Shown: positions 1,444 through 19,297, numbered from the stretch's first letter. The stretch: DNA of 29,828 nt from a virus (IMGVR_UViG_3300021962_010783:1-29828); one strand, 5' to 3'. Made by a program: numbers and translations. The notes: generated from the letters alone by a model not told the origin.

Positions 1444-3744
1444 TTAATTCCTAAAGCCAGTACGGACTAGATAGAAATTAGTTGTGCCGCCTGCCGTTAA
1501 CGAGGTCAGCGATAGAGTTTGTACACCAGGATAAGTTGAAGTTAGATTAGCTGAACTTGAATTGATTGTACTCCATTGACTTGTTTGAAAAATTCGGTAA
1601 CTAGGTATGGTATTTGCCCATGATGGAATTTTACCGTTTGCTCTTGCAAAAATCAAATAAACATCAGTAATCGATAGAGTCGAATTGCCATTTACGTCCA
1701 TTCGATAATAATCTTTAGAATTAAAACTTTGTGATAGAACTTTCTGATTAAACGATTCAGCGTCAGTCGAAGTTGGTAATCCAATTGAATCAATCTGAAT
1801 TACTAATTTAAAGTCATACTTACTAACCCCTAATACAGTTGAAAATGAATATGTACCAGAAGATGAAGTTGTATCTTTGCTGTGGACAGTATAAGCTGTG
1901 TCCGCTTTTAGCTTATAATATAGAGTTAATTCTATATTTTGAACGCCGACTCCTTCTGAAGAATACACTGTGCCGCTTTGCGTAAATGGCCCAACCACGA
2001 TTTCTCCATTTGAAGAGAATGCAAATCCACAAGTACCACTAGTTAATTGAGCTCTAAATAGAGTACCATCAGTTTGATTTGAATATGAATATGAGGCAGA
2101 TGTATTTGAAATGTCTGTCCAAGTAACTCCAGAGTTAGTAGATCTTTGCCACTTTACGATTGTACCAGTGTATCCACTAAGAGTCAATGTGCCCGAATTC
2201 GTTGAGGTCGTGTGAACTGCCGAGGAAACAGATCCGCCGACTGGTGGAGTTCCAGAAGTTACTGTGATAGTCTTTGCGTCTGAATTGATTGCGCTACCAC
2301 AGTTTGGCGTTTGTACTTGAACTCGATAATAATATGTACCAGCTGAACTAACTGTCTCAGTTAAACTAGTTGTCGTATTTGAAATATCAGTCCAGTTTAC
2401 ATTATCGGTTGATCGCTGCCATTTATTAATATTACCCTGTTGACCAGATAAGGTTAACTCGACTTGCCCGCCTGCGCAAATCGAATTATTTGCTGCGAAT
2501 ATTGTACCGGCTTTGGTTGGCTTAACTGCCAAGTAAATACTAGATGAGGCTAAACCGGTACATGATTGTGGGCTCGTTGAGTTTACGATAGCTCGATAAT
2601 AAGTAGTCTTAGTTAGATTCGTAACAGTTATGCTCGATGACGTGCTTGATATTGTAACACCAGCCGTAAAGAAATTATCAAATGAATATTCCCATCTCGC
2701 GATACTGCCAGTATAGCTATTGAGAGTTAGAGTCGTACTATTACTACCGGAACATACATTGATATTACCGCCGCTAATGTATCCACTTGACGCTCCAGAT
2801 ATTTCAATATTGCGAGTCGAAATCGTAATGCTTGAAGTTAGATCATTTGGCATATCTCCATATTCACAAATATATCCAGGTAAATTGGTGTTGGGCAGGT
2901 CATTCCATGAACCGGCATTACCTGAATAGAATTGGCCATAATGTTCCCCGCCTGAGTTATTCGGTTCACCACCTGCCCATTTTGCGTATTGGCCAGTTGT
3001 TGCAGTACTACCGCTAGAAAATTGTGTTCCCTTTTCAGGACCAGTTATCCAGTGCCATTTTTGTTCTACTGCGGCTTGCGAAGCGTACGCTGTAGTTCCT
3101 TTAGCAGTATTGACTTGAGTTACCTCATCCGATGCACCAAACCAACCATCATTTGCCATTAATTTCCAAACAAAGTTATTTTCAGCTTCAGAGGTCATTG
3201 TTGCCAAATAACCAGCTCTACCGAAATATGATCGGTTTTCAGCAGAGGTTTTTGAGTTTGTCCATGATGTACTACCTGATACATACTCGTAGAAGTGTTC
3301 AGTTAATGGATTATAGAATACTATGCCTGCAACAAACGTTACTCTTCGTTGAAGAGCATAACACGTACTAGAGGTAGATTTAAATTCAACTCCTCTTAAA
3401 ATAGTTTCCCAGTTAGCAGCAGTCGTCGTACCGTTAAATACTAAAATACCAGTTGTCGTATTGAAAGCCGATACTGTAATGCCCGATGGCAGAGTGGCAG
3501 TTGATCTTAATTGATCACCGCTAGTTCCACTAATGTAACTTTGTGATATTTGAACTCTAAACCCAGTTATTGTGCCGTTAGCCGTTAATGTAACGTTGGG
3601 ATCAACTTTTGTCCAAGTATTGTGACTTACTGATAGAGTAGATGAAGTTCCTCCCAAACTTACTGTCGTAGCCTGAGCCATTGCTAGTATTGGAAGTACT
3701 AACGTCAATATAGTTAATATGAAACGTCTAATCGGTGCCATCAT
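1444..3744 (-). CDS. Secreted C-type-lectin / Ig-like repeat protein with dockerin-like C-terminus
   Basis: A 766-residue exported protein. Residues 1-24 form a signal peptide ending AMAQ. A beta domain with cadherin-like character (about 28-140) is followed by a C-type-lectin-like domain (about 144-296) with hallmarks GEPNN (259-263), WND (280-282) and YICEYG (291-296). Three Ig-like repeats follow (about 320-585), each with a KWQRSTxxxxWTDISN-type core. A C-terminal module (590-766) contains a dockerin-like DVNGNSTLSITD segment and is related to part of the T9SS-tagged protein encoded at 7.3-9.3 kb. There is no obvious T9SS tail, so its release or anchoring route is unclear. It is last in the CsgG-like/barrel operon and starts at a TAATG overlap. 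Glycan or protein binding at the infected-cell surface, or virion adhesion, is inferred. Confidence 0.85.
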   Translation of the reverse strand: MMAPIRRFILTILTLVLPILAMAQATTVSLGGTSSTLSVSHNTWTKVDPNVTLTANGTITGFRVQISQSYISGTSGDQLRSTATLPSGITVSAFNTTTGILVFNGTTTAANWETILRGVEFKSTSSTCYALQRRVTFVAGIVFYNPLTEHFYEYVSGSTSWTNSKTSAENRSYFGRAGYLATMTSEAENNFVWKLMANDGWFGASDEVTQVNTAKGTTAYASQAAVEQKWHWITGPEKGTQFSSGSTATTGQYAKWAGGEPNNSGGEHYGQFYSGNAGSWNDLPNTNLPGYICEYGDMPNDLTSSITISTRNIEISGASSGYISGGNINVCSGSNSTTLTLNSYTGSIARWEYSFDNFFTAGVTISSTSSSITVTNLTKTTYYRAIVNSTSPQSCTGLASSSIYLAVKPTKAGTIFAANNSICAGGQVELTLSGQQGNINKWQRSTDNVNWTDISNTTTSLTETVSSAGTYYYRVQVQTPNCGSAINSDAKTITVTSGTPPVGGSVSSAVHTTSTNSGTLTLSGYTGTIVKWQRSTNSGVTWTDISNTSASYSYSNQTDGTLFRAQLTSGTCGFAFSSNGEIVVGPFTQSGTVYSSEGVGVQNIELTLYYKLKADTAYTVHSKDTTSSSGTYSFSTVLGVSKYDFKLVIQIDSIGLPTSTDAESFNQKVLSQSFNSKDYYRMDVNGNSTLSITDVYLIFARANGKIPSWANTIPSYRIFQTSQWSTINSSSANLTSTYPGVQTLSLTSLTAGGTTNFYLVRTGFRN

Positions 3745-4193
3745 TACATTTTATTAACTGCGTCAACTATACTCTTTTTTACAGCGCTTGCAAACGTAGT
3801 TTTTTCAAATGGCAAATTACTATCCTTTAACTCGATGAATGTTGATTTAACTGTGGTCTTTGCAGTACCTTCACCGATATAATCTTTGCCGTCCTTAGTT
3901 ATCTTAATCTTTACAATAGTTTCCTTTTTAGTTGCAGTAAAGGGACCGATTGCGATACCAGTAGTTGGTGCTTCAATACTAACAATTTCGACAATGATTG
4001 GCGAACCGTCTTGGCAAATAGAGAATTTCTCAGATAAAACTTCTTCAGTAATCTGCTTAATACCAAAGATTACTCGATTTGAATTCATTTCCGGCGCGTC
4101 TGCTGTTGCAAACACCTTTTCAACTTTGTAACAGTCACCTGCCGTAAAGCTAGTCAGAATGAATAATGATAGGATGAGAAGTAGGTTTTTCAT
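3744..4193 (-). CDS. Small secreted/periplasmic protein
   Basis: 149 residues beginning MKNLLLILSLFILTSFTAG, a clear signal peptide, with a Cys at about residue 21 that could be lipidated or form a disulphide with Cys60. The remainder is a mixed alpha/beta domain with beta strands such as ETIVKIKITKDGKDYIGEG and a C-terminal amphipathic helix. No family is recognised. It sits between the barrel gene and the lectin gene, with its stop overlapping the lectin start (TAATG), so it may be an accessory factor of the CsgG-like/barrel system. Confidence 0.75.
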   Translation of the reverse strand: MKNLLLILSLFILTSFTAGDCYKVEKVFATADAPEMNSNRVIFGIKQITEEVLSEKFSICQDGSPIIVEIVSIEAPTTGIAIGPFTATKKETIVKIKITKDGKDYIGEGTAKTTVKSTFIELKDSNLPFEKTTFASAVKKSIVDAVNKM

Positions 4194-4195
4194 AA

Positions 4196-5770
4196 TTAAA
4201 GAAGTATTTTTCCACCGGTTAGAACTTGATAGTTTAACATGTTCTTATTCCATTCATAAGTCCCGGAAAAACTTATGTTGTATTTGAATTTCTTCGTGAT
4301 TGAGTAATCCCAAGAACTAAATGGTACAAGTAGGATTCCAGAATCCCACCACTTACCTTCATAGAATTGAGTAAATGGAGAATAAACGCCGAGTAACAAT
4401 ATTGTACCTGTAATCTTTTTACTCTTGCCTGGTGTAAACAGATAGAAACCACCACCTACTGCGGATAGGTTAGTAAAGGCAGTCTTACCTAATTTACCTA
4501 CTGTAAAGTTTGCTCCACCCATTAATGAAAGCTTGCCATATCTTTTTGAACCCAATACTGTCGACGTATTGAAGAAGTCTTTATCGAAGTTTATCATGCT
4601 TGAATTTGCGGTAATTAAGGTCGCAGTCTTCTTTGTCCAAGCTCCATAAAAAGTTATATTCGAATTATTAATCGATGTTGTAAAGTTGCCTAGAAAACCT
4701 TTAGCGAAAGTATTCTTTGTATTTGAATGAGTCATACTCATTGTAAATTTAAATTGGTCCTTTTCTCCTTCCTCTGCGCTACGAATCGCAACAAGATCTC
4801 CAGTACCAATTAACGAACCGACTCTAGCTCGGTTTTTATCTCCGCTCTTGCTGCTTCCTCCCGAACTACCACCGGATCCGCCTTCTGAACCTCCACTTGC
4901 TTCTGCCGCATTTGACACAGAATTAGTCGTTCCACCGTTACCGCCTGAAGTAGTTGTGGTCGTTTCACCGTTGCCGCCAGTCGGCTGAGGATTTGTTCCA
5001 CCGGTTCCAGTTGGAGTACCTGATCCACCACTACCTGATCCACCAGTAGTTCCTCCTGAGCCAGAGCCTGATCCACCAGTATTACCACCTGAACCTGATC
5101 CACCGCTACCTGATCCGCCTGATCCTGAACCGCCAGTGTTGCCGCCTGATCCTGAGCCAGAACCACCGGTATTTCCACCAGATCCTCCAGTATTGCTGCC
5201 AGATCCATTTGAACTTCCGCCATTATTACTACTTGATCCAGCAGAACCAGACGACCCTGATCCTCCTGAGTTGCTGCCTCCATTAGCTGAACTGCTGTTC
5301 GAATTATTTGAATTACCGTCTGAGTTACCTGAACTACTTGATGATGAGTTGTTTGTTGCATTGCCTAAGGCATTGCTGACTCCACCAGTTGAAACTGACG
5401 CGACACTACCGGCTAACTGAGCAGACATTGTTGCTACAGATGTGATGTTAGTTAGAGTTGAAATAATATTGTTTGTTACAATTAGATTAGTGGTTGTGGT
5501 AGTTGCCGTAACTAAACCATCACAAGGCTTATTTGAATTTATTGCTGCAGTGGAATTCATCCATGCAGTAAATACGCCATTATTAAAATCTGCTTGAGAA
5601 AACGTGCCGACCTGTCCGTAATAAGTAACTGCAATATTCTGCTGATTGGCCGGAATAGTTATCGTCTTAATCAGTTTAGTACACGGATCTACATAAGTAT
5701 ACGTATAGCTTTGAGAAAAAGCTACAGTAGAGAAAAGTATTGAAAATAGTAGAACCGCATACCGTATCAC
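4196..5770 (-). CDS. Outer-membrane beta-barrel with long Gly/Ser repeat linker
   Basis: 524 residues. A signal peptide (about 1-19, ending AFSQ) leads to a small N-terminal domain with two Cys, a Ser/Thr/Asn-rich stretch, then about 130-150 residues of Gly/Ser/Asn repeats (GGSGSGSGG, GGNTGGSG), and a C-terminal domain (about 340-524) of alternating hydrophobic/polar strands with aromatic girdles, typical of an outer-membrane barrel. The start is GTG and overlaps the CsgG-like stop by 4 nt (GTGA), indicating coupling. The linker could display the N-terminal domain or span the cell envelope. The barrel is called from composition only; no named family is recognised. Confidence 0.75.
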   Translation of the reverse strand: MIRYAVLLFSILFSTVAFSQSYTYTYVDPCTKLIKTITIPANQQNIAVTYYGQVGTFSQADFNNGVFTAWMNSTAAINSNKPCDGLVTATTTTTNLIVTNNIISTLTNITSVATMSAQLAGSVASVSTGGVSNALGNATNNSSSSSSGNSDGNSNNSNSSSANGGSNSGGSGSSGSAGSSSNNGGSSNGSGSNTGGSGGNTGGSGSGSGGNTGGSGSGGSGSGGSGSGGNTGGSGSGSGGTTGGSGSGGSGTPTGTGGTNPQPTGGNGETTTTTSGGNGGTTNSVSNAAEASGGSEGGSGGSSGGSSKSGDKNRARVGSLIGTGDLVAIRSAEEGEKDQFKFTMSMTHSNTKNTFAKGFLGNFTTSINNSNITFYGAWTKKTATLITANSSMINFDKDFFNTSTVLGSKRYGKLSLMGGANFTVGKLGKTAFTNLSAVGGGFYLFTPGKSKKITGTILLLGVYSPFTQFYEGKWWDSGILLVPFSSWDYSITKKFKYNISFSGTYEWNKNMLNYQVLTGGKILL

Positions 5771-6480
5771 TGTCTAAATACGCCCTTTTTAATCAGCTTT
5801 GATACTACTCGAGAAGCTGCTGTCTCTAGGGCCTTTTTAGTTGATATACCGATCGTTGATTGATTAAATTTAACTTCATCAATTCCATCAAGCAATGTCG
5901 CTTTCTTTACTGTAACTGCTTCGCCTGAACCGGAGCCAGTTATAATTTCACCAGTTTCTGCATCAACGAATCGTACTTGTAAACCCATCGTAGTTTTTTG
6001 GCGAACTTCTGCTCCGCCGACTTGAATATCTTCATCTTCGCTTACTGCAAAATCATATACTTCAATATAGACAAAATACTTGGCTAAGATAACGTTGCCT
6101 TTAACTTCTATTTTATTCTGAGAAATTCCTTTGTCTGACGCTTTATCTTGAGCAATCATCTTATTCTTAATTTCAGCTTTGTCTTCTGTGAATATAAAAC
6201 GGTCAGTCATCTCTAAGTATTCTAACACGATGTTAGCAACACCCAGTCCAACTCGTTTATCTCTTAGTTCTGGATACATTGCATAAACGTCTTCATTAAT
6301 TCCAATTTGTAGAACTTGAATTGGAATAACGATTGTATCTGTATACTCGCCTAGTGCACTGATTGATTGTTTCTTTTCGAACTCAGCTTGATAGGTCTCA
6401 GTCTTTGTACTGCCTATTGATTGAGCTGATGCTACGATTGACCATAGCGCGCTAGCGGCAAGGATTAAGAGTCTTTTCAT
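5767..6480 (-). CDS. CsgG-like secretion channel protein (curli-type)
   Basis: 237 residues. The ATG that gives a normal signal peptide (MKRLLILAASALWSIVASAQ) was chosen; an upstream in-frame extension is Cys-rich and overlaps another small gene. The mature part resembles the CsgG/HfaB fold: an N-terminal strand (VIPIQVLQI), an amphipathic helix pair (VGLGVANIVLEYL), DRFIFTEDKAEI, then KVxGNVILAKYFVYIEVYDF and LQVRFVDAETGEIITGSGSG, matching the order of the CsgG core strands and transmembrane hairpin region. CsgG forms a nonameric outer-membrane pore exporting curli subunits. No Cys lipobox is present, unlike E. coli CsgG. It heads an operon with a barrel, a small secreted protein and the lectin protein. 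Family call is from pattern recognition and should be confirmed by profile search. Confidence 0.7.
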   Translation of the reverse strand: MKRLLILAASALWSIVASAQSIGSTKTETYQAEFEKKQSISALGEYTDTIVIPIQVLQIGINEDVYAMYPELRDKRVGLGVANIVLEYLEMTDRFIFTEDKAEIKNKMIAQDKASDKGISQNKIEVKGNVILAKYFVYIEVYDFAVSEDEDIQVGGAEVRQKTTMGLQVRFVDAETGEIITGSGSGEAVTVKKATLLDGIDEVKFNQSTIGISTKKALETAASRVVSKLIKKGVFRQ

Positions 6481-6482
6481 TT

Positions 6483-6587
6483 TTAATTCACAATTTTTGC
6501 TGCAAGTATTGCAATGAATACGAACCATGCCACAACTGCAGTTGCAGCCCAACCTTCATCCATAAACCAGGCAGTAAACCTTTTCAT
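6483..6587 (-). CDS. Small single-pass membrane peptide, 34 aa
   Basis: A short ORF starting MKRFTAWFMDEGWAATAV with one transmembrane helix (about residues 14-30) ending KIVN. It fills the gap between the two-pass membrane protein and the CsgG-like gene, with its stop 2 nt before the CsgG-like ATG, which argues it is real and co-transcribed. Function unknown; small phage membrane peptides can be lysis or envelope modulators. Confidence 0.6.
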   Translation of the reverse strand: MKRFTAWFMDEGWAATAVVAWFVFIAILAAKIVN

Positions 6588-6604: not shown

Positions 6605-6964
6605 TTATTCTCCAGAAACGTTAGATAACGATTGCCCGTCTTCTTCGTCTACTTTTTGAATCAGCATCTTATCGCGATCTTCAGAGTTAAACCAGTAATC
6701 AACTACTTTGTTTAAGTTTCCAACAAATGCACCTAATAGGATTAGCAGCATTTCTTTCCAATCTTCTCCAATTGTTGCACCAATGAATACGCCAGCATTG
6801 ATTCCAACAATGATTAGCGTAAATAATCCCAATACAATTGCTGTAATTTTCCAACGGTTGCTTTGCATTTGCTGCAACATGTAATAGAAACGATTCTTTT
6901 CGTCTACTTTAACATAATCGGCTGGGCCTAAACCCATTGCCTTTTTTAACTTATCGAGTGCCAT
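6605..6964 (-). CDS. Two-pass membrane protein, holin-like candidate
   Basis: 119 residues with a soluble N-terminus (about 1-37), two hydrophobic helices (about 39-61 and 69-86), and a charged C-terminal tail. The motif AFVGNLNKVVDYWFNSEDRDK after the second helix resembles the xxFWFGSSxxSxxK ending of many small phage membrane proteins. Size and topology fit a holin, but the endolysin genes are on the other strand 3 kb away, so holin function is only a possibility. Confidence 0.65.
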   Translation of the reverse strand: MALDKLKKAMGLGPADYVKVDEKNRFYYMLQQMQSNRWKITAIVLGLFTLIIVGINAGVFIGATIGEDWKEMLLILLGAFVGNLNKVVDYWFNSEDRDKMLIQKVDEEDGQSLSNVSGE

Positions 6965-6982
6965 CTACGTATCGAATAATTT

Positions 6983-7312
6983 TTACCAAGGATCTTCTTC
7001 CTCTTTCTTAGGTTTTGGTGCAGGCTCAGCTGCGGGTTTCTCAACAACTTTTTCTCTGATAATGGTTTGACCACCACCACTTGATGAATTGTTTTTAGAA
7101 GAGTTGTCGACGTTTAAGATAATGTTTGGTTGTTGTGCTGCTGGTTGAGCGACCTGTTCAGTCTTGGTCTCTTCCTTTTCACCTCCAAAAATAGCTTCAA
7201 TGTGAGTTGCAACATAACCACCAACTGCAGTTACCGCTGTAGTTGCGATACCAATGATAGTTTTCTTTAGCGTTGACATTCCGCCTTCGTTGCCTTCTTC
7301 GTTCTCTGCCAT
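6983..7312 (-). CDS. Membrane-anchored protein with Pro/Lys/Glu-rich tail
   Basis: 109 residues. A hydrophobic segment (about 17-35, TIIGIATTAVTAVGGYVA) is followed by a low-complexity hydrophilic tail: KEETKTEQ, a Ser/Asn/Gly stretch, then alternating Pro/Lys/Glu ending EEEDPW. The layout suggests a single-pass protein with an extended tail in the cytoplasm or periplasm. No family is recognised. It lies downstream of the T9SS-tagged gene on the same strand. Confidence 0.7.
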   Translation of the reverse strand: MAENEEGNEGGMSTLKKTIIGIATTAVTAVGGYVATHIEAIFGGEKEETKTEQVAQPAAQQPNIILNVDNSSKNNSSSGGGQTIIREKVVEKPAAEPAPKPKKEEEDPW

Positions 7313-7335: not shown

Positions 7336-9261
7336 TTAATTCGACTTAATTACTCTTTTTGAGATAATACCATTCTCTGTCGTAAGCACGGCAATGTAAG
7401 TACCAGCTGGCAAATATCCAAGGTTAGCGTTATATGAATACTGTCCTTCTGGAAATCTTTGCGACGGAAGTACTTCTGCTACTAGCTTACCACTAACGTC
7501 TCTGATTCCCAAATTAGTCTGACCTTCTTCTTTTACATTAAAGACCAAGGTAATTTGATTTGCAGTTGGGTTCGGATAGACTAGCATATCTGCAAGCTCT
7601 CCAATGTTTACGTTTGGTGCAGCAACTCGACGGACTTCAATACGACCCTCAGTTGGAGTAATATTCATATCCCTTGAATTCGCGTTACCTGCATATTTTC
7701 TGGAAACATAGAGCGGGCTCACTGTCCATTGAGTCTGTGGAGATTTTGCAATAAACTGTAAGTTAAGAACCTGATCATTATTACTGATTAGATTCTGGTT
7801 GTTGTGGGGATCATAACCTCCCCATTCAACTGTTCCATTACTTGGATTGAAGAAAGTCTGCCATGAAGCAACGGCTTCAGTAGTCTGAAGAGATTTGAAT
7901 TCCAATAGAGATTGATCGTAATTCAATGCAAGTTGAAGAGAGCTTAGATCAACTCCAGTTAAAACTTTAACTGGTACATTTACTAAGTTACCTTCCGCAA
8001 CTGACAGAGTTGGCATATTAACTTCAAAGGTTTGTAAAGTAGGATCGTCATATTCGACTGTTGCATCGATGATGTAAAGGCGTGCATTGTTTGGATTAAC
8101 GATCTTGATTGGAGTTAAACGTGCCATGTTGTAACCAGTTCCGTTAGCATCACCAGGTACAGCTACGTAATAAACTACTGAATCCGGTTGACCTGGAAGA
8201 ATATTAAATGTGAAGTTAGTTACACCGGCAATAGTTGAAGTATAGTTAGTTGAAGGGCTGTTTGTGATCGTATCATATTGGCCTTGAGTAAAGAACTTGA
8301 TATCAGGTACACTATTTGGCCATACTGAGAATCTACCAGCGATTCTACCAAATACGCCATATGCGTCAGTGATTGAGATATCGTTTGTACCGTTTACGTC
8401 AGCTGCATAGAATTCAAATGCAGTTGGAGTTGCTTGACCTAGCACCCATTGGTTGATCTTGTGAGCGTCTGCTGTTGAAATAACGTTACCGACTGACATT
8501 GTATCACCTTTAACGTAGAGGCGAACATCATAGTAAGTAGTATCTAACCATTCATCAAATGCGAAATAACCAGTCGTATCAGTTGTTGCGGTTGTCCAGT
8601 TAGTCCACGTTGAACCAGTCTTTGGTTTAGATTGAAGAGCCAGCGTTAAGTTCTTAGCACCAGAACCAGTAACGTTTTTGAAACGACCGTGGTATTGGAA
8701 TTGTTGTAGATCGAACGAACCACCATATGAATATGCAGTAAGCGTTGTATCTGCACCAGCATTAGTTGCGGCTAAGTTCGTAAAAGTTTGTACACCGCTT
8801 ATCTCTAACGAATCGATACTGCCATAAAAGCTTTGGAAGTTCGCAGAGTGGCGGAATTTAATTTTAAATAGTTCTCCATCTGGAATATCAAATGTTGCAC
8901 TACTTCCAGTATAAGCTAAGGTAATTGTAATGTGACCGTTAATAGTATCGGTCTTATATTGCATATACTGCGAGAACGTATTATTTAGAGAAGTAACGAC
9001 TGGTGCTTGACCATTAAAGGCAGCATTATCGTACCAAACTCTAAACTGCATACCTGCAATTAGAGAAGAGGTATTGTTGTGATAGTAAAGTTTTGCAATT
9101 GTCGAGTCAGCTGCAACTGTACCTACTTGGTATGAAGTATCAACAAGAACATACACACCAGCAGCGGGAGCAGTTGGGCCAGTCTGAGCCAATAATTTTG
9201 AAGGGGTAACTGCGAAAAACGCAATTAGGAGAATGCCCAGAAGGGCCTGTAATTTTTTCAT
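7336..9261 (-). CDS. T9SS-sorted secreted protein with cohesin- and dockerin-like domains
   Basis: 641 residues. Signal peptide at 1-25 (ending LLAQ). Cohesin-like beta-sandwich about 35-165; a beta domain about 190-255; dockerin-like helices with ISTADAHKINQWVLG (261-275) and DVNGTNDISITDAYGVFGR (289-307); a second cohesin-like domain about 415-545 (VNVPVKVLTGVDLSSLQLAL); and a C-terminal domain 558-641 starting YPNPT (562-566) with AGTYIAVL and ending SKRVIKSN, the signature of the Por secretion (T9SS type A) sorting domain. The protein should cross the inner membrane by Sec and the outer membrane by the host T9SS, then be attached to the surface or released. A GATAAATA late box lies 24 nt upstream of the ATG. 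An unusual cargo for a phage genome. Confidence 0.88.
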   Translation of the reverse strand: MKKLQALLGILLIAFFAVTPSKLLAQTGPTAPAAGVYVLVDTSYQVGTVAADSTIAKLYYHNNTSSLIAGMQFRVWYDNAAFNGQAPVVTSLNNTFSQYMQYKTDTINGHITITLAYTGSSATFDIPDGELFKIKFRHSANFQSFYGSIDSLEISGVQTFTNLAATNAGADTTLTAYSYGGSFDLQQFQYHGRFKNVTGSGAKNLTLALQSKPKTGSTWTNWTTATTDTTGYFAFDEWLDTTYYDVRLYVKGDTMSVGNVISTADAHKINQWVLGQATPTAFEFYAADVNGTNDISITDAYGVFGRIAGRFSVWPNSVPDIKFFTQGQYDTITNSPSTNYTSTIAGVTNFTFNILPGQPDSVVYYVAVPGDANGTGYNMARLTPIKIVNPNNARLYIIDATVEYDDPTLQTFEVNMPTLSVAEGNLVNVPVKVLTGVDLSSLQLALNYDQSLLEFKSLQTTEAVASWQTFFNPSNGTVEWGGYDPHNNQNLISNNDQVLNLQFIAKSPQTQWTVSPLYVSRKYAGNANSRDMNITPTEGRIEVRRVAAPNVNIGELADMLVYPNPTANQITLVFNVKEEGQTNLGIRDVSGKLVAEVLPSQRFPEGQYSYNANLGYLPAGTYIAVLTTENGIISKRVIKSN

Positions 9262-9782: not shown

Positions 9783-10604
9783 ATGATTTTAAAAGTTGGA
9801 TCGACGGGTGATCTAGTCAAAAAATTGCAAGAAAAGCTCGGTCAAGCCGCCGATGGTAACTTCGGCCCAGGCACTGAAAAAGCTGTCAAAGAATGGCAGT
9901 CAAAAAACGGTCTTACGGCAGACGGTATCGTCGGTCCAGCGACCCTAGCAAAAATGGGAATTAGCGAGGCGGCTGCACCAGCTGCGCCAATTTCAGCTGG
10001 CCCATTAAAGTTAGAAAAATTAAAAGGCCATGTACCTGATTCGGTAATCGCACAGATTCCAGAAGTTGCAGCAAAATTCGGTATTACGAATAGTCTTAGA
10101 CTTGCCCACTTCCTAGCTCAATGCGGTCACGAGTCTGGTGGTTTCAAAGCGGTTCAAGAGAATTTAAATTACGGTGCGAAGGGTCTTCGTGGAATCTTCG
10201 GTAAGTATTTCCCAACTGATGCAAAGGCCCTAGAATACGAAAGAAAACCTGAAAAAATCGCAAACCTAGTTTACGGTAACCGTATGGGTAATGGAGCTGA
10301 GGCAACTGGCGAAGGCTATAAGTTCAGAGGTCGCGGTTACATTCAATTGACCGGTAAAGCTAACTATACAAACTTTGCAAAGTTTATTGGTGAAGACACA
10401 GTTGCAAACCCAGATCTAGTTGCAACAAAATATCCTCTCGCATCAGCTGCATTCTTCTTTCAATCAAATGGCCTTTGGGCAATTTGCGATAAGGGAGCAG
10501 ACGATGCAACTGTAACTGCAGTTACTAAGAGAGTTAATGGCGGCACAATAGGTTTGCCAGACAGAATCAAGCATTTCAAGGAGTATTACAATGCTCTTTC
10601 CTAA
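9783..10604 (+). CDS. Endolysin: peptidoglycan-binding domain plus GH19 (chitinase-like) domain
   Basis: 273 residues. Residues 1-58 form a PG_binding_1 domain (GSTGDLVKKLQEKLG, DGNFGPGTEKAVKEWQ, DGIVGPATLAKMG). An Ala/Pro linker (61-75) leads to a GH19 lysozyme/chitinase-like domain (about 80-270) with GHESGG (catalytic Glu117), a second likely acid Glu126 in VQENLNYG, and the conserved GRGYIQLTG (183-191). It would cleave the glycan strand of peptidoglycan at lysis. No signal peptide is seen, so it needs a holin or other release. It is one of only two plus-strand genes, starting a short unit that ends at a strong terminator. Confidence 0.92.
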   Translation: MILKVGSTGDLVKKLQEKLGQAADGNFGPGTEKAVKEWQSKNGLTADGIVGPATLAKMGISEAAAPAAPISAGPLKLEKLKGHVPDSVIAQIPEVAAKFGITNSLRLAHFLAQCGHESGGFKAVQENLNYGAKGLRGIFGKYFPTDAKALEYERKPEKIANLVYGNRMGNGAEATGEGYKFRGRGYIQLTGKANYTNFAKFIGEDTVANPDLVATKYPLASAAFFFQSNGLWAICDKGADDATVTAVTKRVNGGTIGLPDRIKHFKEYYNALS

Positions 10605-12565: not shown

Positions 12566-13930
12566 CTATTTGGAGTTTTTTAGATTCTTTTTAAGCTCAA
12601 CTAAATCTGTTTTATACATATCAATTGGCTCAGTCTTTTTTACTATAACAAGTTCATCGGATTTAACTGCAACTTCAGTAAGCAGTTGTTCATACAGTTC
12701 TTTAGTTAATGAGCTAATTGCCATCGACAGTAGATAATTGTATGACTCGTTGACTAGATCAAATTTCAATTTCTCAAGTTCAGCAACGAGCTCAGCTTTA
12801 GGTCGATTGTTTATCTTTAGCTTGCCTTCGATTATCAACTTAATAAACTTTGCTCTATTTGACAAGAACGTCAATTCACGATTCAGTTTGTCAATTAGAT
12901 AGGCTTTACGCTTGTCATAATAACTCAATCTAAACTGTACAAAGTATTCGACTAATTCTGAAACTGATTCAAATATTTTGAGCTTACCATGTTCGTCCAA
13001 ACAGGTTAGGTTTTCAGTTTCGTTCTCTTGCATCTTAAGCAGAGAATCTAGTTTGCCCTTCTTAAGTAAATCAGCTAATGTATTTCTTGAAAACTTGAGA
13101 GTGTAATTTATTCCGCCTGAACAGTTATCATCATATGAATAGATTGTACCTTTTTCCAATAGGGAATTTAGGTGAGACTCATATTTTTGATAAGTGATAG
13201 ATGGTGGTAATTCTGAAATCTCGACAGTCGTTGTGTTTGCAACTTTGTACGAGCCGCTCATCACATACTGATTTGGATTACCAGTCGGCTTGACTTCGCC
13301 TGAGAAATCTTTCCACCATGGTACAAGAGTTGGGACCTTTTTTCCGGCTAAGACATTGAGACATGCATCGATTAAGTCAATCGGATTTCGGTTTAGAATG
13401 TTTGTCGCAAATCCAACTGCAATACCTGAAGATCCATTTAGCAAAACTGCTGGAATAATTGGTAAGAAGAAAGCCGGTTCAATTTGAGAACCTTCTTCAT
13501 GTCGAGATTCCAATAATTCAAAGTCCTTGTATAAGAGTCTAAAATTCTTGGTCGTTCTTGTTGAAATATAACGAGCCGCACCAGCTTCTGGCGAGCGTAG
13601 CGAACCAAATTGCCCTATCTCTTCAAGTAAAGGCAACGAATTCTTAAATGATTGAGCCATTCCAATGATGGCTGAATTGAGAGAACCGTCACCATGGTGG
13701 TAGTGAGCATCTGCTGCGACCTTACCACCTAATTGAAATATCTTTAATGGTTTCTCGGTGCCAGATTTCCAAACTTTATCTGAAATATAAATGATCTTAC
13801 GCTGAGTCGGTTTAAATCCATCAATCACTGATGGGATCGCTCGATTCTCAAGAGTATACATTCCATAGAGCGCATAGTCTTGATCTAGGTATTGTGTTAT
13901 TGATTTTCTTATAGTTGCTATTTTTGCCAT
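12566..13930 (-). CDS. 52: Type II DNA topoisomerase, medium (cleavage) subunit, T4 gp52-like
   Basis: 454 residues, close to T4 gp52 (about 440) and far shorter than cellular GyrA/ParC, because the C-terminal beta-pinwheel is missing. Conserved features: VIDGFKPTQRKIIY (36-49), HYHHGDGSL (76-84), and the catalytic tyrosine Tyr121 in GAARYISTR. The tower and coiled-coil regions follow to the C-terminus. It pairs with the large subunit encoded upstream to relax DNA and decatenate replication products. Unusually, a SulP transporter gene lies between the two, and the start overlaps its stop by 13 nt. Confidence 0.93.
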   Translation of the reverse strand: MAKIATIRKSITQYLDQDYALYGMYTLENRAIPSVIDGFKPTQRKIIYISDKVWKSGTEKPLKIFQLGGKVAADAHYHHGDGSLNSAIIGMAQSFKNSLPLLEEIGQFGSLRSPEAGAARYISTRTTKNFRLLYKDFELLESRHEEGSQIEPAFFLPIIPAVLLNGSSGIAVGFATNILNRNPIDLIDACLNVLAGKKVPTLVPWWKDFSGEVKPTGNPNQYVMSGSYKVANTTTVEISELPPSITYQKYESHLNSLLEKGTIYSYDDNCSGGINYTLKFSRNTLADLLKKGKLDSLLKMQENETENLTCLDEHGKLKIFESVSELVEYFVQFRLSYYDKRKAYLIDKLNRELTFLSNRAKFIKLIIEGKLKINNRPKAELVAELEKLKFDLVNESYNYLLSMAISSLTKELYEQLLTEVAVKSDELVIVKKTEPIDMYKTDLVELKKNLKNSK

Positions 13931-15033
13931 AGTGCGCTCTTTTTTATCGAATAGTAGAGTATTGTTCCAGCAATAACCCCTAACGCTAAGTTATGAGTTA
14001 CTAATGCTATGCTAGTAGTACCAAAAAGTACAATCATCTTGTATACGTTCAAGGTCTTTAGTGCTTGCCAATCGCCAGTTTGAATAACGACAACTACCAT
14101 AACTCCAATTAAGCCAGCAAGCGGAATGAGTTCAATCCATTTACCTAAAGTTAAGATGATAAGCGCTAAACCAAAAGCGGCCGCTAACGACGAGAGTCTA
14201 TGCTTTGCACCAGCAGCTAAGTTCAAATTCGTTTGTCCAATTAATACACAGCCTCCCATAGAATTGAATAAGCTACTGACTATATTACCTAGGCCTTGAG
14301 CAAAAGTTTCTTTCTTTTTACTACCTTCATTACCAACTGCAATTAGAGATTCAGTTAGGCCAGATATTGCAACACCAAATGAATATGGTAATACTGCAAG
14401 TATGGCAGACCAACTTAAAAGTGGCATGGTAAAAGTTGGCAAACTTGCTGAAACTGGGGAAATGTCTCCAACTGTCGGTAACATTAATGGGACTCCTAAT
14501 AGTATACCAATTGCTAAAGCTGATAAAGCTGGCGGAAAACTAAATCGAGTTATTGATTTCCACATAGCAATTGCAGCAAGGCTAATGACACCCAGTGTTG
14601 CAATTAATTCGAGAGTAGATGGCTTGCCGATATCTAAATAGTGTAGCTGACTGCTAAAGATCATTATCGCTAATGCAACTAGGAAACCTGACATAACCAG
14701 TTTCGGTATTTTATCAAATATTTGCCAAGCGCCGCTTATCCAAATAATTAATTGAATTAAGCCCGCGACCAAGACGCCAGTAAAAAGATATTCCATTCCA
14801 TGCGAATTAACTAGTGCCGCTAAGATTACAGCAGTTGCACCAGTTGCTCCACTAATTAATCCAGGTCTACCTCCAAAAATAGCGGTTGACAGTGCCATAA
14901 AGACAGCTGCCCATAGACCAACTTGCGGCGCTGCTCCAACTAATAGCGCAAATGAAATTGCTTCAGGTACAAGTGCAACTGAAATAGTTAGACCGGATAA
15001 TAACTCTTTTCGAGCTTGAGTAAAATTCATCAT
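13918..15033 (-). CDS. SulP-family anion transporter, no STAS domain
   Basis: 371 residues, almost entirely hydrophobic helices. The N-terminus has the SulP signature region (SGLTISVALVPEAISFALL, GAAPQVGLWAAV, SGATGATAVILAAL), typical of sulphate/bicarbonate/chloride carriers. Usual SulP proteins are about 500-600 residues with a cytoplasmic STAS domain; here the chain ends after the membrane core (about 11-12 helices), so control by STAS is absent. The start ATGATG overlaps the topoisomerase large-subunit TGA and the end overlaps the medium subunit, so it is tightly embedded in the operon. The substrate cannot be determined. A rare cargo for a phage. Confidence 0.88.
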   Translation of the reverse strand: MMNFTQARKELLSGLTISVALVPEAISFALLVGAAPQVGLWAAVFMALSTAIFGGRPGLISGATGATAVILAALVNSHGMEYLFTGVLVAGLIQLIIWISGAWQIFDKIPKLVMSGFLVALAIMIFSSQLHYLDIGKPSTLELIATLGVISLAAIAMWKSITRFSFPPALSALAIGILLGVPLMLPTVGDISPVSASLPTFTMPLLSWSAILAVLPYSFGVAISGLTESLIAVGNEGSKKKETFAQGLGNIVSSLFNSMGGCVLIGQTNLNLAAGAKHRLSSLAAAFGLALIILTLGKWIELIPLAGLIGVMVVVVIQTGDWQALKTLNVYKMIVLFGTTSIALVTHNLALGVIAGTILYYSIKKSALWQK

Positions 15034-18118: not shown

Positions 18119-19297
18119 TTAGTCCAAATTTAGGTCTGGGATTGCAGGTAAGCGATACTTCATAGTATTCAATAACTGAGAAACATTATTGATCTTAACG
18201 GTATCGTGCCAAAACGGAGTCTTGGTCTTTGCATTTAGGACTACACTCATATTGGATAGGCCAATTGCTCGTTGAATATCTCGTGGACTAGCTGCAATTG
18301 ATTTAGCTCTAAGTTCGCCGTCAATTTTCTTAATGATCATTGGATTTCTAAGGCCAACCATATTTACTTGCCAACCGCCTGGACGGCTAACTTCTCTAGC
18401 CCATTCAATCTCAAACAGATAGAGGCGACGACCGCCCTCTTGTTCTTTACCCAATAGAAAGACTAGGCCGCCTGGATAAATGCGATCTTCATTAACTGGC
18501 TTTTCGCCAACTCCTTCCGGTGAGGTGGAGTCTTCATCTGATTCAGCTTTTGGATCAGAATAAATTGCAGAATATGATTTTGAACCAGCATCAATTAATC
18601 TCTCAATCCAACCCTGATTACGTAATTGTTTGAAAACTAGATTTTCAACTGAGAACTCGCCAGTTTCAGCGAGCCCGTCTTTGCGAGCTTTCATGATCTT
18701 GGTTTTTAAAGCGCCAACTCTTTCAAGTAATTCTCTTGCTTCAAATTCGCTAGACCCATCCGCTAAATTCTTTTCAAGTTCTTCTATTTCAGTTATGTAA
18801 GCTTCAACTTTACGTTTAACATCCAATTCATCGATAGTTGGCTCGTTCCAAACTGGTTTCTTAATCCACTCGTTCTTCATTAACGAGAATAATCCTGATG
18901 ACACGTGGGGCTCATTCTCGTCCTGGGCATATAGTTCAACATCATGGTCTTTGATGATGACTGGGTGCCTCATATTCCATATAAAGCGCTGGCCGTCCAG
19001 TGCCTTCTTTACTAATTCAATATCGTCACCGATTGATTTAAAATCTAGGATAACATGGACATCTAGATCTGAATACTCAGTCCATGTATAATTTGCGATT
19101 GAGCCGGTTAACTGTACGTCAACGACCGGTACTGTCAATTGCAGACCCTCATAGAAATCTTGGGCAATAGCAAGCAATTTAGTTCTGACCATTGGGTCAA
19201 ATTCTTCGCCGGCCCAAAACTTTGGATTTAATTCTTCTTTGTAATAAGCTGATGACTCGGAAAGCCAGGTCTTTCTGGGCTGTACATAACTCTTCAT
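18119..19297 (-). CDS. Nucleotidyltransferase-like protein with N-terminal LxE tag
   Basis: 392 residues. The N-terminus MKSYVQPRKTWLSES fits a capsid-targeting peptide with a possible cleavage after LSE (residues 12-14). A nucleotidyltransferase pol-beta-type motif follows: TGSIANY (64-70) and SDLDVH (76-81), with Asp77 and Asp79 as metal ligands. Then comes ELYAQDENEPH and a helical region (about 140-215) with GEFSVENLVFKQLRN. This architecture recurs in T4-like phages to my knowledge. The rest of the chain (about 245-392) is unknown. The ATG is exactly 5 nt after a GATAAATA box, implying late expression. It may be packaged and injected; its target is unknown. Confidence 0.78.
   Translation of the reverse strand: MKSYVQPRKTWLSESSAYYKEELNPKFWAGEEFDPMVRTKLLAIAQDFYEGLQLTVPVVDVQLTGSIANYTWTEYSDLDVHVILDFKSIGDDIELVKKALDGQRFIWNMRHPVIIKDHDVELYAQDENEPHVSSGLFSLMKNEWIKKPVWNEPTIDELDVKRKVEAYITEIEELEKNLADGSSEFEARELLERVGALKTKIMKARKDGLAETGEFSVENLVFKQLRNQGWIERLIDAGSKSYSAIYSDPKAESDEDSTSPEGVGEKPVNEDRIYPGGLVFLLGKEQEGGRRLYLFEIEWAREVSRPGGWQVNMVGLRNPMIIKKIDGELRAKSIAASPRDIQRAIGLSNMSVVLNAKTKTPFWHDTVKINNVSQLLNTMKYRLPAIPDLNLD

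Follow-up and report, generated by a model that had tools for sequence, protein, structure and literature searches.

What does a phage gain from an operon of exported proteins? The question is raised by a 29.8-kb linear virus record (IMGVR_UViG_3300021962_010783, analysed over its whole length and called the window here), in which one minus-strand operon encodes a cohesin protein with a predicted sorting signal for the host type IX secretion system (T9SS), a lectin with a dockerin-like domain, a CsgG-fold protein and an outer-membrane barrel. The reading set out below is that this module serves phage surface display, the lectin being placed on the infected Bacteroidota cell by way of the host T9SS and a cohesin–dockerin joint, with the CsgG-like/barrel pair as an accessory; we give this reading an even chance. 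The core idea of an earlier note on this DNA, namely that an adhesin is put on the infected cell, is supported. The strongest evidence for surface display, judged from the sequence, is the T9SS-sorted cohesin protein, which lies outside the genes that the note had considered.

That note had described four minus-strand genes, all with signal peptides, in a tight operon, and its coordinates and joints were borne out. The CsgG-like gene (5767-6480) and the barrel gene (4196-5770) overlap by 4 nt (GTGA), a gap of 2 nt separates the barrel gene from a small gene (3744-4193), and a TAATG overlap joins the latter to the lectin gene (1444-3744). An N-terminal hydrophobic segment is present in all four products, usually with an x-A/S-Q-type cleavage site after it. 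A test for signal peptides, based on crude hydrophobicity, was passed by 24/24, 29/29, 29/29 and 47/47 members of the respective families. The four genes are also conserved together, but the module is larger than had been proposed: it is a block of about 8 kb that includes, upstream in the same operon, the cohesin gene (7336-9261) and genes for two small membrane proteins (6605-7312), all of which had been missed.

The cohesin protein with a sorting domain and the dockerin lectin

The cohesin protein, here named CohT9, is encoded at 7336-9261 on the minus strand and has 641 amino acids (aa). It consists of a signal peptide, an N-terminal cohesin-like part, a dockerin (about 8335-8505), a cohesin (about 7633-8025) and a T9SS type A C-terminal sorting domain (about 7348-7581). 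The cohesin matched PF00963 with 48.4 bits against a cut-off of 24.1, and the sorting domain matched both PF18962 (41.3 bits, cut-off 27) and TIGR04183 (46, cut-off 23). Among the relatives of CohT9, the sorting domain was found in 39/39 and the cohesin in 32/39. The family profile matched a solved dockerin (4uyp_B, E 4e-4), cohesins (6kg8 and 6kgc) and T9SS C-terminal domains, and a PNP sorting motif was present in 101 of 108 CohT9 proteins versus none of 129 lectin-like proteins.

A cultured relative, Flavobacterium phage immuto, infects Flavobacterium, a genus with T9SS. In immuto and phages of its type, CohT9 is split into a part that covers the dockerin region without a sorting domain and a next gene that encodes cohesin plus sorting domain, as expected if a dockerin–cohesin joint holds both parts together.

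The lectin–dockerin protein (1444-3744, minus strand) has a signal peptide, a C-type lectin domain (about 2863-3297) with EPN and WND motifs, immunoglobulin (Ig)-like repeats and a C-terminal dockerin-like domain (about 1627-1782), and it carries no T9SS sorting domain. The earlier description of a 766-residue protein of lectin, Ig-like and dockerin-like parts was upheld, with domains below threshold in the window copy. Among 47 homologues, Lectin_C (PF00059) was detected in 33, and two other sugar-binding folds, Laminin_G_3 and PA14, in 12 and 2. The EPN and WND sugar-binding motifs occur together in 87 of the 129 lectin-like proteins and in the window copy. The family profile matched mannose-receptor-type lectins (best E 2e-35), and the family carries a C-terminal dockerin-like loop.

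A diversity-generating retroelement with the C-type lectin as its target was ruled out, as no reverse transcriptase of such an element was found in the window or in eight related records and no template/variable repeat was found in the window.

The CsgG-fold protein, its paralogue and the barrel

The CsgG-like protein (5767-6480, minus strand) has 237 aa when read from the ATG at 6480, the preferred start; a mechanically listed TTG at 6552 adds a stretch that is absent from the relatives. Its structure was predicted from an alignment of 23 sequences of phage relatives. The CsgG fold that the earlier note had assigned to it was recovered: the eight best matches in the VIA comparison (999 aligned chains) were all CsgG, with Z 12.3-13.2 over 171-203 residues, and among the CsgG structures the membrane-bound form 4uv3 matched with Z 12.7 over 191 residues. 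The next structures were Cj1090c (Z 11.3), PelC (9.9), FlgT (9.4), LptE (about 9) and TraT (about 8), and Foldseek retrieved 4uv2 at E 2e-8.

The protein has no meaningful match in Pfam, PHROG or NCBIfam, PF03783 giving none at E 1, and the profile of 24 CsgG-like sequences found no true match in the PDB. Of 24 relatives, one matched PF03783 at E 0.001. In profile–profile comparisons, PF03783-type Bacteroidota proteins aligned weakly from end to end (E 4.6e-5, probability 68%), and true Bacteroidota curli CsgG gave no match (probability 0.2%). Because the best fold matches are all CsgG whereas the profile does not match true curli CsgG, the protein is, as far as the predicted model tells, a CsgG-fold protein and not a curli CsgG. 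With hand-placed boundaries, its hairpin 1 has 22-23 residues versus 25 in true Bacteroidota CsgG, and its hairpin 2 has 27-28 versus 37, about 10 fewer; in the monomer model, which is of middling confidence, hairpin 2 is without its second strand. Since the second hairpin is short by about 10 residues, it is doubtful that the CsgG-like protein alone builds a pore. A lipobox-like motif was present in 52 of 137 relatives and absent from the window protein. CsgF (PF10614) and curlin (PF07012) were detected in an E. coli control and in neither the window nor 14 related records; a curli system as a whole was ruled out on this ground.

The small exported protein Sm149 (3744-4193, minus strand, 149 aa) is a paralogue of the CsgG-like protein and shorter than it. 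Comparison of both families by hhalign gave a probability of 97.6% and E 3e-12 over 116 columns that reach the C-terminal end of Sm149, so the alignment argues that two related proteins of one fold are encoded in one operon. It had been listed before as a small periplasmic protein; it is small and exported, but its kinship to the CsgG-like protein had gone unnoticed. Apart from these phage proteins, the Bacteroidota CsgG encoded at two further loci (L143 and L148) has 460-467 aa, of which about 200 form a C-terminal extension resembling an outer-membrane barrel.

The barrel protein, BarLink (4196-5770, minus strand), has a signal peptide, an N-terminal domain with two invariant Cys, a helix (residues 84-127), a linker (about 4826-5389) and a barrel (about 4199-4825). 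In the predicted structure the barrel has 12 strands (residues 319-523), and its best structural matches were autotransporter translocators (NalP, Z 21.2) and, lower, the amyloid exporter FapF (Z 15.6), at a sequence identity of about 6-11%. The outer-membrane barrel and the Gly/Ser linker had been recognised correctly, but the linker is longer than the 130-150 residues given before: in the window it is disordered, has about 188 residues and is made of 36% Gly and 28% Ser. In the relatives it is Gly/Ser/Asn/Thr-rich and has 70-269 residues. The family profiles of both Sm149 and BarLink found chance or low-complexity matches only in the PDB. A BFVD search with BarLink returned generic phage barrels only, and the barrel alone gave no credible match in 198 Bacteroidota genomes.

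Conservation and setting of the module

The loci compared were retrieved from a single collection through their similarity to the proteins of the window. In 75 complete neighbourhoods anchored on the CsgG-like gene (6 kb on both sides), BarLink was present in 75, Sm149 in 74, CohT9 in 72, the one-segment membrane protein TM109 in 72 and the lectin in 71. After dereplication at 95%, the counts for 25 neighbourhoods were 25, 25, 24, 24 and 25, respectively. From the other side, the CsgG-like protein and BarLink were both present in 40/40 CohT9-anchored and 29/29 Sm149-anchored dereplicated loci. This reciprocal co-occurrence from three anchors fits the conserved operon of phage origin that had been proposed, and the four genes were found to stay together in relatives.

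The CsgG-like protein is encoded by at least 591 IMG/VR contigs, with one copy in each of 14/14 large records tested (138-344 kb); among GenBank phages it was found in immuto only. A search of 84,980 bacterial species genomes returned 2 relatives, both in metagenome-assembled genomes and with a phage-type neighbourhood, and among 395 Bacteroidota genomes there was one strong match, the metagenome-assembled genome serving as centre. Recent acquisition from bacteria was ruled out by this near-absence from bacterial genomes, and by its distribution the module is phage-specific and not a passing host gene. Two of the loci (L083, a 254-kb contig, and L084) are phage contigs that apparently lie within two bacterial metagenome-assembled genomes, either through binning contamination or as carried phage.

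Both small membrane proteins are encoded on the minus strand. TM109 (6983-7312), a conserved member of the module, has one transmembrane segment and a Pro/charged tail ending in D/E-P/S-W. TM119 (6605-6964), found in 40 of the 75 complete neighbourhoods, has two transmembrane segments and a conserved DYWFNSEDRDKM tail; it is holin-like in topology only, and no significant match was found in Pfam or PHROG. Some TM119 homologues (L129:9384-9974, L084:8914-9486), and not others, carry a C-terminal calcium loop (DxDGDG) and a Cys-bearing tail.

Additional genes accompany the module in part of the loci. In 25 of them (L016:13241-13825, L021, L023, L028 and others) the module contains a gene for a DNA/RNA non-specific endonuclease (PF01223) with a signal peptide, and in immuto a NUC1-annotated gene lies just upstream of the lectin gene. 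A small HExxH metalloprotease-like protein, also with a signal peptide, is encoded near the module and often directly after Sm149 (cluster of 68 loci, among them L003:7486-7974 and L005:12829-13320). The metalloprotease-like protein and the endonuclease would suit a role of the module in the envelope.

Outside the module, the window holds phage topoisomerase II subunits, an endolysin and other phage genes. The endolysin gene (9783-10604; PG_binding_1 plus a GH19-like domain) lies on the plus strand, opposite to the module, and in relatives it is often, not always, beside it. A sulfate-permease-like gene (13918-15033, minus strand; PF00916, E 3e-35) stands between two topoisomerase II subunit genes, and the product of a gene at 18119-19297 (minus strand) bears a faint signature of nucleotidyltransferases (PF01909, 22.0 bits, barely above the cut-off; phrog_36119).

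The proposed surface display, its rivals and known systems

In the surface-display reading, CohT9 would leave the cytoplasm by Sec, the host T9SS would recognise the sorting domain carried in its sequence, and the protein would be anchored on the exterior of the infected cell. The lectin, devoid of such a domain, would be held on CohT9 by a calcium-dependent joint between the dockerin and cohesin domains of the pair. The CsgG-fold protein, Sm149 and BarLink may form an outer-membrane complex, much as PelC-PelB and LptE-LptD pair a protein of this fold with a barrel. In its favour, the predicted CsgG fold and the predicted 12-strand barrel are encoded by genes with a 4-nt overlap. This complex would most likely be the exit or anchoring site of the lectin. 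The two small proteins, presumably of the inner membrane, may serve or time the outer-membrane complex. The infected cell, or its remains, would gain a sugar-binding coat, which could hide the phage's own receptor glycans and so fend off superinfection, or bind nearby cells and progeny to one another. The coat could serve for receptor masking, for cell capture or as a help in release. In Flavobacterium, overexpression of RemA raises aggregation (PMC11205867), which shows that a lectin displayed by T9SS can have this effect.

Several points weigh against this reading. Export, binding and complex formation are all inferred from sequences and predicted models; the CsgG-like model is of middling confidence (mean pLDDT, the predicted local distance difference test, 68.8) and the predicted N-terminal half of BarLink is poor. 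The window lectin falls below the cut-off for PF00059 (17.4 versus 22.6 bits), as do its repeats for Ig_7 (17.8 versus 27.3). The dockerin matches in Pfam are weak: PF00404 was detected at E 0.01 in 12/39 CohT9 proteins and 10/47 lectins, the window copies being below threshold. The reading offers no route by which a lectin of 300-770 aa would cross the membrane, and a channel of CsgG size would need it unfolded.

A last point is that the module is often found close to genes for an endolysin or for holin-like or spanin-like proteins, as would fit a lysis role. As lysis genes are common, though inconstant, neighbours, such a role is the main rival, and we consider it unlikely rather than remote. 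The CsgG-fold protein and barrel, with holin-like small proteins, would breach the outer membrane late, replacing spanins or acting beside them, and the surface proteins would aid release or dispersal of the progeny. An endolysin was found within 8 kb in 14/40 CohT9-anchored and 14/29 Sm149-anchored dereplicated loci. Small genes nearby encode a PF05105 holin (11 loci, e.g. L018:14066-14500), which is distinct from the module's conserved membrane proteins, a holin-like coiled-coil protein (phrog_9316, 9 loci, a weak match) and another short family with two transmembrane segments (41 loci). For the methylophage Melnitz, a phage CsgGF pore has been proposed to act in lysis (PMC9004378). However, lysis needs no lectin, cohesin or T9SS sorting domain, the endolysin is inconstant, and other holins stand beside the module in some genomes.

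Somewhat less probable is an oligomeric export pore proper, type VIII-like, built by the CsgG-like protein and secreting the lectin or another substrate. The best fold matches, including membrane-bound 4uv3, and the nearly full-length hairpin 1 argue for it, whereas the short hairpin 2, the missing CsgF and curlin, the window protein without a lipobox and a substrate far larger than curlin argue against it. The export channel for the lectin that the earlier note had proposed is, with no PF03783 match in addition, unsupported as it was put forward.

An abundant phage cargo might instead saturate the T9SS and thereby strip the surface of the host adhesins that serve as phage receptors, the lectin being secondary. 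This is improbable: the sorting signal is present on 39/39 CohT9 proteins and the host lectin adhesin RemA is displayed by T9SS (PMC11205867), but jamming does not account for the conserved genes of the dockerin lectin, the CsgG-like protein and BarLink. Finally, the exported proteins might be picked up by particles at lysis as a decoration that aids adsorption. C-type lectin folds do serve in phage adsorption proteins, but we consider this very improbable, since all the proteins have Sec-type signal peptides, CohT9 has a T9SS signal and no reverse transcriptase for diversity generation was found in nine records.

Returning to surface display, the block of about 8 kb recurred around the CsgG-like gene wherever the neighbourhood could be read, in the many contigs and in a cultured phage, and therefore it must pay its way. 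Its genes have a hypothetical annotation or none. We tentatively propose, at a little under an even chance, that large Bacteroidota phages encode a T9SS-routed cohesin scaffold, a dockerin lectin and a CsgG-fold/barrel complex with which they remodel the exterior of the cells they infect, and that this is an undescribed viral strategy. In the open-access literature, which makes for a weak negative, no paper was found on phage cohesin/dockerin, on T9SS-sorted phage proteins or on a virus system of this make-up. If true, a phage would exploit host type IX secretion and the cohesin–dockerin joint for its own ends, and the case is tractable because immuto and its host are isolated in culture.

With PelC-PelB and LptE-LptD, the phage pair shares a periplasmic protein of related fold beside an outer-membrane barrel, but those systems handle polysaccharide or lipopolysaccharide and the likeness is one of fold only. 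Type V autotransporter translocators and FapF share with BarLink a 12-strand barrel preceded by a helix, but in the BarLink family a disordered linker of 70-269 residues separates helix from barrel, unlike type Va autotransporters, in which the pore helix leads straight into the 12-strand barrel.

Curli clusters (CsgG plus CsgF, some with CsgA/B) are known in pelagiphages and a methylophage, where sibling capture or aggregation, superinfection exclusion and lysis have been discussed (PMC7029224, PMC9004378, PMC9599517). In these type VIII clusters, too, a CsgG fold encoded by the phage has exported proteins as operon partners. Their CsgG is close to alphaproteobacterial CsgG and is accompanied by CsgF, in some clusters also by curlin repeats. 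In the present module the window protein does not match PF03783, CsgF and curlin are absent, and the partners are a dockerin lectin, a cohesin protein with a T9SS signal and a barrel of 12 strands. If the proposal is true, a second lineage, alike in the CsgG fold alone, would join the marine phages whose curli-type genes are a puzzle.

In cellulosomes, likewise, a single gene cluster encodes both a scaffold with cohesin and a binding protein that ends in a dockerin, but here the cluster is phage-encoded, the scaffold is T9SS-sorted by prediction and the cargo is a lectin, not a hydrolase. The proposed T9SS-sorted display of a sugar-binding protein is shared with RemA and SprB of Flavobacterium, which carry lectin and sorting signal on one chain. 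These are host-encoded, whereas the phage module splits the lectin and the sorting signal over two proteins.

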